DNA from: Puniceicoccus vermicola
GTDB taxonomy: Bacteria > Verrucomicrobiota > Verrucomicrobiia > Opitutales > Puniceicoccaceae
Direction: 5' to 3'
NCBI RefSeq assembly: GCF_014230055.1
Contig: NZ_JACHVA010000045.1
Coordinates: 1-49,207, forward strand
Length of the DNA stretch: 49,207 nucleotides
The notes under the pieces were generated by a model. The model ran no database searches and was not told where the DNA came from. It worked only from the letters and a program-made list of their open reading frames with translations. Both the position numbers and the translations under genes were made by a program. Positions 11,339-48,912 of this stretch are shown piece by piece (positions within the stretch are counted from its first letter, which is position 1; every line of letters begins with the position of its first letter).

Positions 11339-12295
11339 ATGGGCAAGCGTAGGCATCGTATTTCGGATCAATTCGCGTATTATCATCTAATGAGCCGGAC
11401 GGTAAACGGAGAGGCTCTCTTCGGTGATCGGGAGAGGGAGGTTTTGCGGAAGATGATCTGGCAGGTGGCTGAGTTTTCTGGGGTTCGGGTGGTTACTTAT
11501 GCGGTGATGAAGAACCATTTTCATATTTTGGTGGAGGTGCCACCGGCGGGGACTGAAGTCTCGGATGGGGAGTTGGTTCGTCGGTATCGGAAGCTTTATC
11601 CTAAGCCTACTCCCTGGAATCCAATGCCTGCTGAGGTTTTGGAGGGGCATTTGAAGGATAACTTTCTTGATGGGAGGGAGTTGCGCAAGGAGCTTACCCG
11701 CAGGATGCATGATGTTTCGGAGTTTATGCGGACTCTGAAGCTTCGTTTTACGCTTTGGTTTAACCGCTCACGTGATCGGTTTGGGCCGCTTTGGTCGGCT
11801 CGCTTTAAGAGTGTTTTGGTCGAAGGGGATCGGTGGGCTTTGCGGACCGTGGCGGCCTATATTGACCTGAATGCAGTTCGGGCGGGGTTGGTTGCGGATC
11901 CTAAGGATTATCGGTTTTGCGGTTATGCCGAGGCTCTCGGCGGTGGCCGACTGGCTCGAGCCGGGCTTTCTGTTGTGGATAAGGACTTGGCGGGGTATCG
12001 GCAGACTTTGTATGGGGCTGGCGATGGAGAGAAAGAGGGGAAAGAGTCCATTTCCCACGAAGAAGCGGTGCGGGTTTTGCGGGAGGAAAAGGGGAAGTTG
12101 CCCCTTTCGGTGGTTTTGCGGTGCCGGGTTCGCTATTTTTCGGACGGGATGGTGCTGGGATCGGAGTCGTTTGTGCGGAAGTTCCTGGAGGATGAACCGG
12201 AAGGGAAGCGGGCGCGAAGGCCTCATCCTCTGAGGGGGAGCGATTGGCAGGGGCTGTCTGTGGGGACTGGGTTGCGCAAGGGGTTGTTTGGGTAA
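11339..12295 (+). CDS. REP-associated tyrosine transposase (RAYT, Y1/HUH superfamily)
   Basis: This 318-residue protein has the Y1/HUH nuclease signature: VMKNHFHILVEVP with His60-Phe-His62 as the metal-binding HUH pair. The family-typical helix AAYIDLNAVRAGLV is followed by DYRFCGY, with Tyr174 as the candidate nucleophile. This combination is characteristic of TnpA-REP proteins related to IS200/IS605 transposases, which cleave single-stranded REP hairpins next to a conserved tetranucleotide (GTAG/GGAG). At 318 residues it is about twice the E. coli enzyme, with an insertion after the HUH (about 66-125) and a C-terminal extension. It is not flanked by REPs here, but GTAG-headed palindromes occur in large arrays elsewhere in the window. 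It is a single gene with a good ribosome-binding site and an AT-rich upstream region, which suggests horizontal origin. Confidence 0.9.
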   Translation: MGKRRHRISDQFAYYHLMSRTVNGEALFGDREREVLRKMIWQVAEFSGVRVVTYAVMKNHFHILVEVPPAGTEVSDGELVRRYRKLYPKPTPWNPMPAEVLEGHLKDNFLDGRELRKELTRRMHDVSEFMRTLKLRFTLWFNRSRDRFGPLWSARFKSVLVEGDRWALRTVAAYIDLNAVRAGLVADPKDYRFCGYAEALGGGRLARAGLSVVDKDLAGYRQTLYGAGDGEKEGKESISHEEAVRVLREEKGKLPLSVVLRCRVRYFSDGMVLGSESFVRKFLEDEPEGKRARRPHPLRGSDWQGLSVGTGLRKGLFG

Positions 12296-33765: not shown

Positions 33766-34163
33766 GTCGTTCACCAAGGACCGGCTGCTTCAGCTGCCGT
33801 CGCGTCTGAGCGGCTATTCTAGTAGGGGCGCAGCTTCAGCTGCCCCCATCGCGTTTTTTTTTCGGAACGGCCACCCGAGGAAGATCTTCCGCGACCGCAG
33901 GACCGCGCAGCTAAAGCTGAGCGACTACTTTTTCGGCGACTCACCCAAGGATCGTCTGCTTCAGCTGCCGCCGCGTCTGAGCGGGTATTTTAGTAGGGGA
34001 GCAGCTTCAGCTGCCCCCATCGCGTTTGTTCCGGACGGCCTCCGAGTAAGTCCTTCCGCGCCCGCAGGACCGCGCAGCTAAAGCTGAGCGGCTACTTTTT
34101 CGGCGACTCATCCAAGGATCGGCTGCTTCAGCTGCCGACACGTCTGATCGGCGCGTCCCCCCC
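33766..34163. repeat. REP/BIME tandem array 1 (about 2.3 units of ~167 bp)
   Basis: The array fills the gap between the convergent ends of the DedA and SulP genes. GTAG-headed palindromes on the plus strand start at 33822 and 33993: GTAG, then stem GGGG(c/a)GCAGC, loop TTCA, stem GCTGCCCC. Inverted partners (read on the minus strand as GTAG followed by a CCGCTCAGCTTTAGC palindrome; the first has GTAGTCGCTC) end at 33928 and 34095, 167 bp apart. Each unit also holds a third palindrome around GGCTGCTTCAGCTGCCG. The right boundary reads CTGATCGGCGCGTCCCC and is the same as that of the larger array at 43963. Confidence 0.92.
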
Positions 34164-35972: not shown

Positions 35973-37466
35973 TTAGTCTCTTGGGGGAAATGAGGGATTG
36001 AGTTTGAGGACATCGCCGGGGTTGATTTGGAAGACTCCGATGTCCGAGGGAATTTCGTCGTTGAGCAATAGCTCGGCGGAAATGGATTCTTGAGTTTCGT
36101 TGGTCCAGACCCACTCGCCGATACCGGTCATTTCGAGACGGACGCCTTTTTCGAGGGAGAGACCCGGGCCTTCGCCACGGAGGTAGATCCCATTTTGGAT
36201 TCCGACGAATGCGGAGGCGATGATCTTCGCCGGTTTTCCGGTGGCTTTGGGCTCTTCCTTTGGGGGTTCTTCAGTCTCCGTAATCGTGGCGGGAACTTCC
36301 ACGGGGGCCTCCTCGGTTTCTTCCAAGGAAGGTTCTTCCGGTTCCGGGATTTCGTCTTCGGCGACTGCATCGGGCTCGCTTGGCTCGCCGGGAGGGTCCT
36401 CCTGGGGAGAAGCGGGTTCGGCCATCACTTCGTCAATCGGTTCTTCTTGGGTGGGAAATTCTTCTTGTTGGGAAACTTCTTCTGCCGGTTCCTCGCCCTC
36501 GGACTCCGGTTCGTCGGAGTGTTCGTCTTCCGGTCCTTGGATTTCGTCTTCGGCAATGGAATCGGGTTCGCTCGGCTCGCCGGGAGGGTCCTCCTGAGGA
36601 GACGCGGGTTCAGCCATCACTTCGTCAACCGGTTCTTCTTGGGTGGGAAACTCTTCTTGCAGGGAAACTTCTTCTTCCGGCACCTCGCTCTCGAGTTCCG
36701 GTTCGTCGGAGTGCTCATTTTCGACGATAATCTCTTCAGTCGCGGCCGGATCATCCTCGATCTCAACGGATTCGGCGGATGGATCAGGCTCTTCTTCTGC
36801 CACTGCTTCTTCGACTTCTTCCGGCTCGGGCGTCGTTTGAGAAGGGCTGGATTCTTGGGCACCGTAGATTTGGAAGCGTCGGAGTTCGTCCAGTTTGGTT
36901 TCCAATCGCTGGATCTCGCCCGAAAGATTGCTCAGGCCCGTATCGACATATTCCTGGGTGACGGCATGGGCGGAGAGAATGCGAAGATCGTCGTGAAGCC
37001 GCTCGATGTCGTTGTTGAGTGGGTTCAGGTCTTCCAGGCGTTTCAGAATTTCGCTGGGGCGGTCGTCCCTCATCGAGAGACTTTTCTCCATCGCCTCACC
37101 GAGCTTTTCTTCGACGAGATCGGGCAGGCGCTCCGAAACGACGCGCAGGGGATTGTCCTCAATCTTGCGTTCGCGGAGTTCTTCGACGATTTCATCGGCC
37201 TTCGCGATGGCCGCTTTCAGGTTCACGCTCGCCTGGGTCGACCGGGATCGGTTCAGGTTTAAGAGTGCGAATTGATCGAGAAGAAAGGGGAGAAGGGTGA
37301 GGACTCCACCGATGGCCAAGCAAAGAACGACGAGGAGGACCGTTGCGATCGACCAGGGATTCGGGCCGAAGAAGACCAGGGCGGCCGCCAATCCGGCGAG
37401 GAGAATGTTTCCCGCGATGAAGGGGGCTTTCGGCGTTTTTCGGTATCTTACAGGCGTCTCGCTCAT
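35973..37466 (-). CDS. Acidic membrane-anchored protein with coiled coil and duplicated Glu/Pro-rich region
   Basis: I do not recognise this 497-residue protein. Two hydrophobic helices (about 16-35 and 39-62) precede a helical, probably coiled-coil region (about 70-200). A long low-complexity segment rich in Glu, Pro and Asp (about 205-410) follows, then a compact C-terminal domain (about 412-490). The acidic part contains a 64-residue tandem duplication. The C-terminal domain has IASAFVGIQNGIYLRGEGPGL, in two parts IASAFVGIQ and NGIYLRGEGPGL, then GVRLEMTGIGEWVW, the look of a small beta-rich, carbohydrate- or protein-binding module seen at the end of some bacterial envelope proteins; I cannot name it. 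Its gene precedes SulP. A scaffold or linker role is only a guess. Confidence 0.75.
   Translation of the reverse strand: MSETPVRYRKTPKAPFIAGNILLAGLAAALVFFGPNPWSIATVLLVVLCLAIGGVLTLLPFLLDQFALLNLNRSRSTQASVNLKAAIAKADEIVEELRERKIEDNPLRVVSERLPDLVEEKLGEAMEKSLSMRDDRPSEILKRLEDLNPLNNDIERLHDDLRILSAHAVTQEYVDTGLSNLSGEIQRLETKLDELRRFQIYGAQESSPSQTTPEPEEVEEAVAEEEPDPSAESVEIEDDPAATEEIIVENEHSDEPELESEVPEEEVSLQEEFPTQEEPVDEVMAEPASPQEDPPGEPSEPDSIAEDEIQGPEDEHSDEPESEGEEPAEEVSQQEEFPTQEEPIDEVMAEPASPQEDPPGEPSEPDAVAEDEIPEPEEPSLEETEEAPVEVPATITETEEPPKEEPKATGKPAKIIASAFVGIQNGIYLRGEGPGLSLEKGVRLEMTGIGEWVWTNETQESISAELLLNDEIPSDIGVFQINPGDVLKLNPSFPPRD
36333..36716 (-). repeat. Two-copy 192-bp in-frame tandem duplication
   Basis: Residues about 251-314 and 315-378 of the acidic membrane protein are near-identical copies offset by exactly 64 residues. 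Both contain EHSDEP, EEFPTQEEP and DEVMAEPASPQEDPPGEPSE. The DNA repeats with the same 192-bp period, so this is a recent duplication inside the gene that keeps the frame and is likely to vary in copy number between strains. Confidence 0.9.
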
Positions 37467-42059: not shown

Positions 42060-42425
42060 TCAGAGTTCGGTATATTTGTCCGATCTCCCGCGCGCCTTGT
42101 CCACCGGATATTTGGCAGCGTTGTGTGACATTTTCTTTTCAATCGTCTCCGCCAGATCGGTGTCGGTCATATTGGCGAACTCGATGGCATAGATGACGAT
42201 GTCGGCGAGCTCCTCGCGGATCTTGGCAATCTTCTCAGGGTCGTTGGCGATCTTCCGGGAATCCGCCGATTCCATCCAGAGAAAGTGCTCAAGCAACTCC
42301 CCCGATTCGGCCGCGATCGCCATGGAAAGGTTCTTGGGCGAATGAAATTGTTCCCAGTCGCGCTCCCGGGCGAAGGCCAGAACACGTTCTTTAATTTCGA
42401 GGAGGCGAGTTTCGTTATCTTTCAT
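42060..42425 (-). CDS. MazG-like nucleotide pyrophosphohydrolase
   Basis: The 121-residue protein (ATG at 42425, chosen over an unlike 20-codon extension) is an all-helical NTP pyrophosphohydrolase of the MazG/RS21-C6 (dCTP pyrophosphatase-like) group. The metal-binding pattern is visible as AAESGELLEHFLW, then EELADIVIYAIEF, matching the family's ExxE...ExxD arrangement. Such enzymes hydrolyse non-canonical or excess (d)NTPs to monophosphates and pyrophosphate. It is upstream of arsC in an apparent two-gene unit. Just upstream of its start lies the large REP array, so its promoter must sit in the short gap or within the array. Confidence 0.88.
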   Translation of the reverse strand: MKDNETRLLEIKERVLAFARERDWEQFHSPKNLSMAIAAESGELLEHFLWMESADSRKIANDPEKIAKIREELADIVIYAIEFANMTDTDLAETIEKKMSHNAAKYPVDKARGRSDKYTEL

Positions 42426-42487: not shown

Positions 42488-43963
42488 CGGGCCGAAGGAC
42501 CGGCTTCCAGTAGGGGCGCAGCTTCAGCTGCCCCCATTGCGTCTGTTCCGGGCGGCACCTCGGGGAAAACCTTCCGAAACCGCAAGACCGCGCAGCTGAA
42601 GCTGAGCGGCTACTTTTTTCAGCGACTCACTCAAGGACCGGCTGTTTCAACTGCCGCCTCGTCTGAGCGGGGATCCTAGTAGGGGCGCAGCTTCAGCTGC
42701 CCCCATCGCGTCTGTTCCGGACGGCACCTCGAAAGACCTTCCGCAACCACAGGACCGCGCAGCTAAAGCTGAGCGGCTACTTTTTTCGGCGACTCAGCCA
42801 AGGACCGGCTGCTTCAGCTGCCGCCTCGTCTGAGCGGGTATTTCAGTAGGGGAGCAGCTTCAGCTGCCCCGATTGCGTCTGTTCCGGACGGCACCTCAGA
42901 AAGACCTTCCGCAACCACAGGACCGCGCAGCTAAAGCTGAGCGGCTACTTTTTTCGGCGACTCAGCCAAGGACCGGCTGTTTCAACTGCCGCCTCGTCTG
43001 AGCGGGTATTTCAGTAGGGGAGTAGCTTCAGCTGCCCCGATTGCGTCTGTTCCGGACGGCACCTCAGAAAAACCTTCCGCAACCACAGGACCGCGCAGCT
43101 AAAGCTGAGCGGCTACTTTTTTCGACGACTCACCCCAAGGACCGGCTGTTTATGCTGCCGCCGCGTTTTAGTGGGGATCCTAGTAGGGGCGCAGTTTCAG
43201 CTGCCCCCATTGCGTCCGTTCCGGGCGGCACCTCGGGAAAAACCTTCCGCAACCGCAAGACCGCGCAGCTAAAGCTGAGCGGCTACTTTTTTGGCTAATC
43301 ACCCAAGGACCGGCTGCTTAAGCTGCCGCCGCGTTTGAGTCGGGATCCTAGTAGGGGCGCAGCTTCAGCTGCCCCTATTGCGTCCGTTCCGGGCGGCACC
43401 TCGGGAAAGACCTTCCGCAACCGCAAGACCGCGCAGCTGAAGCTGAGCGGCTACTTTTTTCGACGACTCAGCCAAGGACCGGCGGTTTATGCTGCCGCAT
43501 CTTCTGAGCGGGTATTTCAGTAGGGGCGCAGCTTCAGCTGCCCCCATCGCGTTTGTTCCGGACGGCACCTCGGGAAAGACCTTCCGCAACCGCAGGACCG
43601 CGCAGCTAAAGCTGAGCGGCTACTTTTTTCGGCGACTTATCCAAGGACCGGCTGTTTCAACTGCCGCCTCGTCTGAGCGGGTATTTCAGTAGGGCCGTAG
43701 CTTCAGCTGCCCCCATCGCGTCTGTTCCGGACGGCACCTCAGAAAAACCTTCCGCAACCGCAAGACCGCGCAGCTAAAGCTGAGCGGGGATCCAAGTAGG
43801 GCCGTAGCTTCAGCTGCCCCCATCGCGTCTGTTCCGGACGGCACCTCAGAAAAACCTTCCGCAACCGCAAGACCGCGCAGCTGAAGCTGAGCGGCTACTT
43901 TTTCCGACTACTCACCAAGGACCGGCTGCTTCAGCTGCCGACTCGTCTGATCGGCGCGTCCCC
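42488..43963. repeat. REP/BIME tandem array 2 (nine ~168-bp units, one shortened)
   Basis: GTAG-headed palindromes on the plus strand begin at 42510, 42679, 42846, 43014, 43183, 43351, 43520, 43689 and 43796. The spacings are 169, 167, 168, 169, 168, 169, 169 and 107. Between them lie inverted partners (GGCTAC on the plus strand, GTAGCC on the minus strand) near 42606, 42773, 42941, 43109, 43279, 43447, 43616 and 43891. A third palindrome with core GCTTCAGCTGC occurs in most units. Units are highly similar but not identical. The array separates the mazG-like gene start from the M42 peptidase gene stop. No protein gene is supported inside it. Confidence 0.95.
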
Positions 43964-45200: not shown

Positions 45201-46871
45201 TTACCGGTTTTCGGTGGGTTTGATGGAATGTGGAAAGAGGAAGTCGATCAACTTTTGCGCGGTCGGCTGGGGCTCGTGGTTGGCGAGGCCGGGCCGTTCG
45301 TTCGCTTCGATGATCACGTAGTCCTCAGATTGCTCGTCGGGGACAATGAAGTCCAGCCCAACGACGGGAATCGAAAGGGCGGCCGCGGCTCGGGTGGCCG
45401 CTTCGCCCAAGACCGGGTTCAGGGTGTCGGTGACGTCATGAATGGTTCCGCCAGTGTGGAGGTTGGCCGCCTTGCGGACGGTCACGATCTGTCCTTTCTC
45501 GAGGACGGATTGAAAGGTGAGGCCCGACTCCCGCAGGCAACGTTCGGTCTCCTCATCCTTGGGAATTTTGCTCTCGCCTCCGGTCGCTGCCGAGCGGCGG
45601 CGGGAGAGGCGGTCGATGAGGTCCTCGGCGGAGTGTTTGCCGGTGCCCATGATTTCGGCGGGTCGCCGGATGGCTGCGGCTACGACTTCTCCGTTAATCA
45701 CGATGATGCGAAGATCCTGCCCGACGGCGTAGGACTCGAGGATGACGTTGTCGCAGAACTTGCGCGCTTCTTGGATGGCGGCCTCCATGTCGGCATCGTC
45801 GGTGATGTCGACGGCGACGCCGAATCCTTGCTCGCCGCTCGCGGGTTTGACCACGATCCGCTTGTGCTCGGCGAGAAACTCCGAGTTCTGGGCGGACTCG
45901 CCCGCCGATTGCTGGGCCGGAACTTTCAGTCCCTTGCGGTCGAGAAGTTCGCGGGTCAGCGATTTGTCATCGCACCGCATGACCGCCACGGCTGAGGTCA
46001 TCTCGGTCAGCGATTCGCGGCAGGTCACCGAGCGTCCGCCGAGGCTCAGAGTGAAAAATCCGCGCGTCGGATCCGGATCGCTCATGCGAATCCCGCGCCG
46101 AAGAGCTTCGTTGATGATGATCTCCGCATAGGGATTGAACTTGGGGTCGGGTGGATCCCCGACAAACAGTCGCTCGTTGATCGAGTTGCGGCATTTGACG
46201 GCAAAGACAGCCACCTTGTGGAAACCGATCTTGTTGTAGAGGCCGATCGCGCCCTCGTTGTCGTGCATGACCGAGAGGTCGAGCTCGGAACGTCCTCGCT
46301 CCAGCATGGTCTCGATGGTTGCGCGAAGGAGGGCTTCGCCGACGCCGGGGAGGTCTCCCTGTTTGTCGACAGCCAAGGCCCAGAGGCTCGAACCGTTCTG
46401 GATGTCGTCAAAATTCTCAGCGTGATCGACACCGAGAACGACGCCGAGGATGTGGCCATCCTCTAAACGGCGGGCGACCAAGTATTGAAACCGTGGATTG
46501 TGGCGTTCGTGCCAGACAAAATCCTCATCGACCGGCACCATCTTGTGGGAGATGTAGATTCGGTTGATCTCGCGGATCTCCTTCTTCGACTGAATGGGCG
46601 TCACCTCGAAACCGGCGAATTCGCGATCCGAGCGTTGATAGTCGGCGAATCGGAGGCGGAAGGTGATCGATGGATCGAGGAAAAGCTCCTGCGGTGCCTG
46701 GTTCAGGACGAGGTGCGGATCGTTTAGGTAGAAGGCAATGTCTCGCTGCCCCTCTCTCTCCTCAAGGACGGTGCGGGCCACCTCCTCCGGCGAGGGGAAG
46801 GTGTGCGCAAATATTAGTCGCCCCCAACCGCATTGGAGGGTGACGCCTTCGAAGGTTGATTCTTCGGGCAT
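45201..46871 (-). CDS. ngg: N-acetylglutaminylglutamine synthetase (GNAT plus ATP-grasp)
   Basis: This 556-residue two-domain protein makes the N-acetylated glutaminylglutamine precursor of the compatible solute NAGGN. The N-terminal half (about 70-245) is a GNAT acetyltransferase with ALAVDKQGDLPGVGEALLRA as its acetyl-CoA-binding region and the NEGAIGLYNKIGFHKV helix. The C-terminal half (about 290-550) is an ATP-grasp ligase with RIVVKPASGEQGFGVAV, ILESYAVGQDLRIIVI and the metal-binding end VIIEANERPGL. This fusion is diagnostic of the NAGGN synthetase. It lies between asnO (15-bp gap) and the M42 gene on the same strand. Confidence 0.92.
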   Translation of the reverse strand: MPEESTFEGVTLQCGWGRLIFAHTFPSPEEVARTVLEEREGQRDIAFYLNDPHLVLNQAPQELFLDPSITFRLRFADYQRSDREFAGFEVTPIQSKKEIREINRIYISHKMVPVDEDFVWHERHNPRFQYLVARRLEDGHILGVVLGVDHAENFDDIQNGSSLWALAVDKQGDLPGVGEALLRATIETMLERGRSELDLSVMHDNEGAIGLYNKIGFHKVAVFAVKCRNSINERLFVGDPPDPKFNPYAEIIINEALRRGIRMSDPDPTRGFFTLSLGGRSVTCRESLTEMTSAVAVMRCDDKSLTRELLDRKGLKVPAQQSAGESAQNSEFLAEHKRIVVKPASGEQGFGVAVDITDDADMEAAIQEARKFCDNVILESYAVGQDLRIIVINGEVVAAAIRRPAEIMGTGKHSAEDLIDRLSRRRSAATGGESKIPKDEETERCLRESGLTFQSVLEKGQIVTVRKAANLHTGGTIHDVTDTLNPVLGEAATRAAAALSIPVVGLDFIVPDEQSEDYVIIEANERPGLANHEPQPTAQKLIDFLFPHSIKPTENR

Positions 46872-46886
46872 GGGATTTGGGTTCGG

Positions 46887-48665
46887 TTATCGAATTCCGT
46901 GAGTCTGGAGCCACATCTCCAGGAGAGCCAGTTGGTAGAGTTTCGAACCGCCGAGGGAGGTGATGTGGTCTTCGGGAGCTTTGAGGAGTTTCTCCACATA
47001 GTTCGAGTTGAAGAGGCCACGCTCGCGCGCGGTGTCGTTGATCAACGCATCGCGGGTCATTTCGAGGAATTCCCCCTTCAGGTATTTGAGGGCGGGTACC
47101 GGGAAATAGCCTTTCGGGCGATCGATCACGCCGGCCGGGATTACTTTGCGAGCGGCTTCTTTGAGGGCATACTTGCCGTCGCCGGGGACCTTCATCTCTG
47201 CCGGCATCTTCGCGGCAAATTCGACCACCTCGTGGTCGAGGAAGGGCACGCGGGCTTCGAGGCTGGCGGCCATCGTGTTGTTGTCGACCCGCTTCACCGG
47301 ATCGTCAACGAGCATGATGTTCGAATCGATCCGCAGGGCTTGGTCCACAGGACGGGTAGCGCCCGGGGAGTCGAAGTGGTTCTGCACGAAGTTCAGCGGG
47401 TTGTCCTCGGCGCAGCGGTAGCGGTCGGTGACCACTTGGCTGTATTCGGCGTAGTCCCGGTCGAAGAAGACCGAAGCGTAGTCGGCGACGCCGTTGGTGC
47501 TCTCCATCATCTTCTTGTACCAGAAGTATCCGGCGAAAACTTCGTCAGCGCCTTGCCCGCTCTGGACGACTTTCACAAATTTGCTGACTTCCTTCGAGAG
47601 GAGGTAGAATCCGACATTGTCGTGGCTGACCATCGGCTCGCTCATCTGGCGGATGCAGTCGCGCAGGGCCGGAATGGTTTTCGAGGAGTCGATGAAAAGC
47701 TTGTGGTGGCTCGTCTTAAAGCGGTCGACGATGATGTCCGAATATTTGAACTCGTCCCCTTCTTCATCGTTCACCGATTCGAAGCCGATCGAGAACGTCT
47801 CCACAGCCGAGGGATCGTGCTCGCAGAGAAGGCCGACGATGAGGCTACTGTCGAGTCCGCCCGAGAGGAGGACCCCCACCGGGACGTCGGCCACGAGGCG
47901 ACGCTTGACCGCGGTGCGCATGACTTCGAGCGTCTCGTCGATCCAGTCCTCCTTGGAATAGTCCTTGCGGCTGTCGTCGGTGCCGTAATTGACCGCCCAA
48001 TACTGCTTGGTGGTCATCTTGCCGTCGGGCTCGACGAACGCGATAGTGGCCGGCGGCAGTTTGTGGATGCCGTTGACGATCGTGTGCGGGGCCGGGACGA
48101 CCGAGTGATAGGTCAGATAATATTGAAGAGCGACCGGATCAATGGAGGTGTCGATTCCACCCGCCGCAATGATTCCAGGGAGGCTGGAGGAAAAGCGAAG
48201 ACGCTCACCGGTGAGGGAGTAATAGAAAGGCTTAATTCCGAGGCGGTCGCGTCCGAGGATCAATCGACCCGTTTCGCGCTCGGTGATGGCAAAGGCGAAC
48301 ATCCCGTTGAGCTTTTCGACAAAACTTTCGCCGAAAGCGTGGTAGGCTTTGAGGATGACCTCGGTGTCGCCATGACTGAAAAACCGGTATCCCTTGCCCT
48401 CGAGCTCCGAGCGGAGCTCCTTGTAGTTATAAATGGCCCCGTTATAGACGATCGAGAGACCGAGCTCCGAATCGACCATCGGCTGCCGGGAAGCTTCCGA
48501 AAGGTCGATGATTTTCAGGCGTCGATGTCCGAACGCAATTCGGTTGGCGGCCCATACGCCGCTGCCATCGGGCCCGCGTAGGCACATTTCCGTGCACATC
48601 CGGTCCAAGGCCGAGGTTTCGACCATTCGGTCGCCGAATACCATTTCTCCGCAAATTCCACACAT
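46887..48665 (-). CDS. asnO: N-acetylglutaminylglutamine amidotransferase (asparagine synthase-like)
   Basis: This 592-residue class II glutamine amidotransferase begins MCGICGEMV, so Cys2 becomes the N-terminal nucleophile after Met removal. The glutaminase domain covers about residues 2-210, with YNGAIYNYKELRSEL. The synthetase domain follows with the ATP-pyrophosphatase loop LLSGGLDSSLIVGLL. By context it amidates the dipeptide to the carboxamide N-acetylglutaminylglutamine amide, rather than making asparagine. It is the first gene of the three-gene osmoprotectant operon. A TTGACA-like element (minus strand, 48729-48734) lies about 65 bases upstream, with a poor -10. Such operons are usually induced by salt. 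Confidence 0.93.
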   Translation of the reverse strand: MCGICGEMVFGDRMVETSALDRMCTEMCLRGPDGSGVWAANRIAFGHRRLKIIDLSEASRQPMVDSELGLSIVYNGAIYNYKELRSELEGKGYRFFSHGDTEVILKAYHAFGESFVEKLNGMFAFAITERETGRLILGRDRLGIKPFYYSLTGERLRFSSSLPGIIAAGGIDTSIDPVALQYYLTYHSVVPAPHTIVNGIHKLPPATIAFVEPDGKMTTKQYWAVNYGTDDSRKDYSKEDWIDETLEVMRTAVKRRLVADVPVGVLLSGGLDSSLIVGLLCEHDPSAVETFSIGFESVNDEEGDEFKYSDIIVDRFKTSHHKLFIDSSKTIPALRDCIRQMSEPMVSHDNVGFYLLSKEVSKFVKVVQSGQGADEVFAGYFWYKKMMESTNGVADYASVFFDRDYAEYSQVVTDRYRCAEDNPLNFVQNHFDSPGATRPVDQALRIDSNIMLVDDPVKRVDNNTMAASLEARVPFLDHEVVEFAAKMPAEMKVPGDGKYALKEAARKVIPAGVIDRPKGYFPVPALKYLKGEFLEMTRDALINDTARERGLFNSNYVEKLLKAPEDHITSLGGSKLYQLALLEMWLQTHGIR

Positions 48666-48912
48666 ATTGTTGTTCTTCTATCGAGTGCCAGTTGGTTCTT
48701 CAGAAGGCTAGGGGGGCTTTTATCAAGGTGTCAAAGGAAAGCCCCGGTAAACCCAATCGTTCGCAAGGAGGATGCCAATTCGTAGCCATTCTCTCTCGGA
48801 GCAAGTAGCCGCTCAGCTTCAGCTGCGCGGTCCAGCGGTCGCGAAAGGCTCTTCCGTTTGAGCTTCCCCTGATATGTTGGACAGCTCGGTGCAAATGAAA
48901 AGGATAACCGAT
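48666..48912. other. Region between asnO and the IS3-type orfA
   Basis: This gap of 247 bases should hold the asnO promoter (minus strand, near 48705-48735), one solo REP with part of its repeat unit (48805 to about 48855), and the likely left end of the IS3-type element, which may begin near 48870 (TGATATGTTGGACAGC). No gene is seen. Confidence 0.55.
48805..48830 (+). repeat. Solo REP palindrome (GTAG-headed)
   Basis: GTAG followed by CCGCTCAGC, loop TTCA-like centre and GCTGCGCGG is the same sequence as the inverted REP of the two arrays, here on the plus strand. Similarity to the repeat unit continues to about 48855 and then stops before the IS3-type element. Confidence 0.88.

Follow-up and report, generated by a model that had tools for sequence, protein, structure and literature searches.

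Opitutus terrae, a member of the Verrucomicrobiota, is highly enriched in GTAG repeats of several families (Di Nocera et al. 2013, PMC3733652). The repeats described here, from Puniceicoccus vermicola of the same phylum, resemble them in being short GTAG-tagged hairpins, in forming dimers with GTAG outside as well as clusters, in lying between genes and in their link to RAYTs, but the REPs are ~50 bp apart, compared to spacers of 1–2 bp in the GTAG-17 HH dimers of O. terrae; the comparison with the families GTAG-17, -19 and -20 was made by description, not by stem sequence (PMC3733652). In Pseudomonas fluorescens SBW25 (Bertels and Rainey 2011, PMC3116915), as here, the conserved unit is an inverted REP doublet that forms one hairpin (REPIN), REPINs plus flanking sequence are stacked in ordered tandem clusters, and a cluster lies beside each RAYT. 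The largest ordered SBW25 cluster holds four REPINs in just over 700 bp, compared to nine in 1.47 kb here (PMC3116915), and the REPIN sequence is different from that of our family, with its loop TTCA/TTTA. The BIMEs of E. coli and their TnpAREP (4ER8) share the alternating inverted REPs, the bulged stems and a RAYT with the W-Q...R signature, again with a different REP sequence. The array belongs to this known REP/REPIN class and is not a new class. A preliminary description had seen in its GTAG-headed inverted pairs the hallmark of sequences known mainly from Gammaproteobacteria; the hallmark fits, but GTAG REPs had already been reported in O. terrae (PMC3733652). What would be a complete REP–RAYT pair, together with an empty site, is presented here for a phylum where mentions of such systems exist but studies are few.

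Architecture of the array

In the window, i.e. the whole stretch of 49,207 nucleotides analysed, the array occupies 42495..43963. Its upstream neighbour is the M42 peptidase gene of the NAGGN system (TIGR03106; 43998..45197, minus strand), followed by the other two NAGGN genes (45201-46871 and 46887-48665, both minus), and downstream in the operon direction lies a MazG-like gene (Pfam PF12643; 42060..42485, minus, with its start by homology at ~42425). Scanning with the pattern GTAG-N5-YAGCTTYAGCTG, allowing at most one mismatch, gave 22 matches across the window, whereas 100 dinucleotide shuffles gave none. The nine plus-strand and eight minus-strand GTAG palindromes counted in the preliminary description are exact: A-type REPs start on the plus strand at 42510, 42679, 42846, 43014, 43183, 43351, 43520, 43689 and 43796, and the heads of B-type REPs lie on the minus strand at 42613, 42780, 42948, 43116, 43286, 43454, 43623 and 43898, while a ninth minus-strand hairpin at about 43791 has lost its GTAG. 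The reported period of ~168 bp was recovered by TRF (168, also 337, across 42508-43787), and the units are 167–169 bp long with a sole exception of 107 bp. A higher-order period of 337 bp was rejected, as identity between units does not rise from lag 1 (0.913) to lag 2 (0.878). Each unit runs from A (+) through B (−) to a linker that carries a third palindrome, C, and the array as a whole consists of a truncated C, nine A-B units and a terminal C element, with the alternating REP orientation and regular spacing of a BIME. The region has no match in Rfam, and no sigma-70-like promoters were found in it.

The exception is unit 8 (43689..43795). B and C both end in TGAGCGG, and from this unit ~61 bp between the two repeats are missing; with them went the GTAG at the head of B and the C element, which leaves a length of 107 bp. 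The tandem array of ~1.5 kb in the preliminary description is therefore present but not quite pure. As the assembly is in 143 contigs, copy number within arrays may be collapsed.

The first A-type REP (GTAG-GGGCGCAGC-TTCA-GCTGCCCC; 42510..42535, plus) is predicted to fold as GGGG-c-GCAGC/TTCA/GCTGC-CCCC with GTAG at the 5′ foot (z −3.8). The first B-type REP with GTAG (GTAG-CCGC-t-CAGC-TTCA-GCTG-c-GCGG; 42588..42613, minus) is predicted to fold as CCGC-t-CAGC/TTYA/GCTG-c-GCGG, also with GTAG at the 5′ foot (z −3.1 and −2.6 for two B forms). GTAG is wholly unpaired in B, and in the predicted fold of A its last G pairs with an extra 3′ C. Together, A on the plus strand and B on the minus strand make up the first REPIN (42510..42613, 104 bp, GTAG outward), predicted to form one long hairpin of −56.4 kcal/mol (z −4.0); further REPINs start at each of the A-type positions from 42679 to 43796, the one at 43689 with its right GTAG lost.

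The C palindrome noted in the preliminary description as a third one is present in eight full copies (the first at 42633..42680, the others at 42800, 42968, 43137, 43305, 43474, 43643 and 43917), with one more, truncated, at the left end (42495). It has AGGACCG at its start and TGAGCGG at its end, like B read on the plus strand, and a copy beside a REPIN on another contig (C52, L190) ends in TGAGCGGCTAC, which is GTAG on the other strand. Based on these few copies, C is best read as what is probably a decayed B-type REP, and not as a third kind of element.

Two further REP loci were found in the window. An array at 33774..34161, detected by both TRF and the pattern scan, has the same 167-bp unit, with two REPINs (A-B pairs) and three C elements, and the variant right-hand end TCTGATCGGCGCGTCCCC that it has in common with the main array indicates a relationship between the two that extends past the REPIN. 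A solo B-type REP (48805..48830, plus) lies upstream of the NAGGN amidotransferase gene. Another tandem repeat at 36334-36713, with two copies of 192 bp and 18-bp sub-repeats, is unrelated to the REPs.

A dispersed family and its unit

The repeat also occurs far beyond this locus. Its 12-base core has 274 copies in the 5.2-Mb genome compared to 20 for a reversed-pattern control, and GTAG stands at one fixed offset in 235 of the 274 and in none of the control; a looser pattern with two mismatches gave 298 matches against one. In sampled stretches (the DNA around REPs and RAYTs, picked partly with a GTAG pattern), GTAG is present at 140 of 152 cores, and solos, pairs and arrays all occur. The position bias between genes is strong, with only 4 of 145 REPs inside ORFs of at least 200 aa, though such ORFs make up 75% of the sampled DNA; for ORFs of at least 100 aa the figure is 32/145 at a coding share of 86%, and is inflated by spurious ORFs in repeats. 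Short hairpins whose 5′ foot is an unpaired GTAG, a high copy number and a mainly extragenic position are the features of the GTAG REP superfamily. Among the sampled gaps, those with REPs are more often convergent (17/32 as compared with 36/127, p 0.011) and seldom divergent (1/32 as compared with 31/158, p 0.020); three ORF cut-offs were compared, of which this one gave the sharpest contrast, and genes were called only roughly. The family is lineage-specific as far as our searches reach, being absent from 34 close relatives, while across 383 other genomes of the class just three stray matches turned up, a number close to that of the reversed controls.

Pairs with GTAG outside span 100–107 bp in 42 of 48 cases in the sampled stretches, the conserved distance expected of inverted REPs that form one REPIN hairpin. 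REPIN identity is 93% within arrays and 80% between arrays. The linkers between pairs are near-constant inside one array but differ from array to array (64–65 bp in this window, 126 bp on C82, 128–129 bp on C140 and 1–6 bp in most others), suggesting that the ~103-bp REPIN is what was dispersed and that REPIN plus linker was duplicated on the spot. By this pattern, the arrays look like local tandem duplications, and the case separates the spreading unit from the locally multiplied one.

Candidate transposase and origin of the array

A search with a profile of short RAYTs identified a candidate partner at G000:C127:8113-8703, in a frame with a GTG start. Two A-B pairs lie upstream of this gene and two downstream (one downstream A reads GTCG), the arrangement of a REPtron. 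The protein has an HUH motif (MPNHLH), a single catalytic Tyr (YVESNP) and the sequence WQRSWFDRWIR, and the RAYT family profile aligns with E. coli TnpAREP (4ER8) at E 4.5e-11. This alignment places in it the W-Q...D-R..R stretch, which has been linked to GTAG recognition; where the E. coli protein has E-H it has D-R, as do subclasses 2.5 and 2.7 (PMC6006769). Its only NCBIfam match is REP_Tyr_transpos (NF047646; E 3.5e-19), at 69.1 bits and so below the curated cut-off of 80, and it has no match in Pfam; we file it as a RAYT by its motifs and REPtron context, not as an NF047646 equivalog. A scan of named genomes with a single RAYT protein found no relative. On the genomic evidence, the C127 RAYT is the likely cognate transposase of the family; encoded at another locus amid copies of the element, it very probably helps the element to spread. 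A GTAG-headed family dispersed genome-wide, intergenic and flanking a RAYT gene bears out the REP/BIME identity proposed in the preliminary description.

Named relatives of the neighbouring peptidase put the window within Verrucomicrobiota, in Opitutales or close to it. The closest relative, G002, shares an exact 50-base stretch at this locus with Opitutia bacterium UBA4506; the two genomes are probably identical or almost so. Neither this REP nor a near copy of the C127 RAYT was found in G002. The gene order peptidase-mazG-arsC is conserved there, with a peptidase–mazG gap of 27 bp compared to 1,572 bp here (counted from a mazG start at 42425, which matches that of G002). The empty site is that of one sister genome, and a by-eye comparison of its 27-bp gap with the flanks of the array revealed no junction.

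We hold with considerable confidence that the array is a BIME of a lineage-specific GTAG REP family, whose ~103-bp REPIN would be moved in trans by the C127 RAYT, a dedicated single-domain HUH transposase (RAYT/TnpAREP) in a REPtron of the same REPs. The single-stranded REPIN would fold into hairpins as predicted, and the RAYT would recognise the GTAG-headed foot and cut and rejoin there, by analogy with E. coli TnpAREP and from the conserved residues. A REPIN would then have been inserted between the NAGGN peptidase gene and mazG, a gap whose short original length is supported by the 27 bp of the sister genome. REPIN and local linker would afterwards have been multiplied in tandem to the nine units observed, by slippage or unequal recombination, with at least one deletion of ~61 bp between short direct repeats, itself observed. 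Arrays could also be made purely by recombination, or RAYTs might, as PMC3733652 discusses, generate them straight from circular intermediates.

A linker common to the units of one array points to local tandem duplication, a trace that an ordinary minisatellite grown at this locus would leave as well, with copies elsewhere dispersed by recombination and not by a transposase. The more than 200 dispersed copies, solos and single pairs included, the 103-bp module conserved in unrelated linkers and flanks, the exact GTAG head genome-wide and the RAYT gene flanked by the family make this explanation hardly tenable. Equally little credence is given to the movement of the REPs by a different HUH enzyme, the Y1 family of ~320 aa. 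This family outnumbers all other HUH families in the genome, with about 38 copies, one of them in the window (11339-12295, plus), and accounts for most of the 50 Y1 transposase matches in the Pfam search. We rejected it as the mover, since stretches of ~6 kb around its genes are free of this REP family, except for two longer stretches in which the REPs are ~6 kb or more away, whereas the short RAYT on C127 is bracketed by REPs of the family.

A selected host element, acting as RNA or DNA, is a somewhat less remote explanation than these two, but still an unlikely one. It would terminate or stabilise the NAGGN transcript, uncouple mazG, or bind a nucleoid protein or gyrase, and such a role could hold on top of a mobile origin. 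The position of the array directly 3′ of the NAGGN operon, the strong RNA fold of the REPIN (z −4.0) and seven terminator-like sites, located on both strands (shuffles gave 2.7 ± 1.8), are consistent with it, as is the preference of REPs for convergent gaps and their avoidance of divergent ones. However, the sister genome manages with a gap of 27 bp, the same REP family lies at many unrelated loci, and the gap bias is equally expected from mere tolerance of insertions; the REP functions cited in PMC6006769 are known from other bacteria. Expansion at this site was most likely neutral or selfish.

Other RAYTs and their hairpins

The genome has about nine further RAYT genes, on C16, C9, C36, C80, C92 (two), C127 (at 41345), C139 and C141. 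Most sit amid a hairpin repeat family of their own, GTAG- or GTGG-headed on C16, C9, C80 and C92; for C36, C139, C127:41345 and C141, where the automatic hairpin test found none, the association rests on reading the sequence. Several of these families share the loop TTCA/TTTA, and GTAG is the most enriched tetranucleotide (14.8-fold) before hairpins in the flanks of 15 RAYTs. The genome seems to hold many REP–RAYT pairs in parallel, side by side. At G000:C9:20166-20708, amid GTAG hairpins, a RAYT frame is broken by one TGA and is probably a recent pseudogene.

The best RAYT of G002 shares 64% identity with the C36 RAYT but no more than 34% with that of C127. In both sister genomes, the hairpins on either side of the RAYT that they have in common show a related GCTTCAGC core, a hint of enzyme–target co-divergence. 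We tentatively raise the possibility, doubtful as it is at present, that each RAYT serves only its own family, that RAYTs and targets co-diverge, and that large arrays may be products of RAYTs and not of recombination; were each RAYT indeed restricted to its own family, one cell would be a natural specificity panel. The G002 RAYT (L146, G002:C39, 900-2700) is surrounded by a long tandem array made up of its own GTAG/GTGG hairpins, whose loops are TTCA/TTTA.

The ~320-aa Y1 genes are scattered singly, with 63–97% identity among 32 compared copies. Many have a common upstream motif (about TATAACNGTT, then TTGAC) and no shared downstream flank. They would be either a single-gene mobile element or an expanded RAYT-like family with common regulation.
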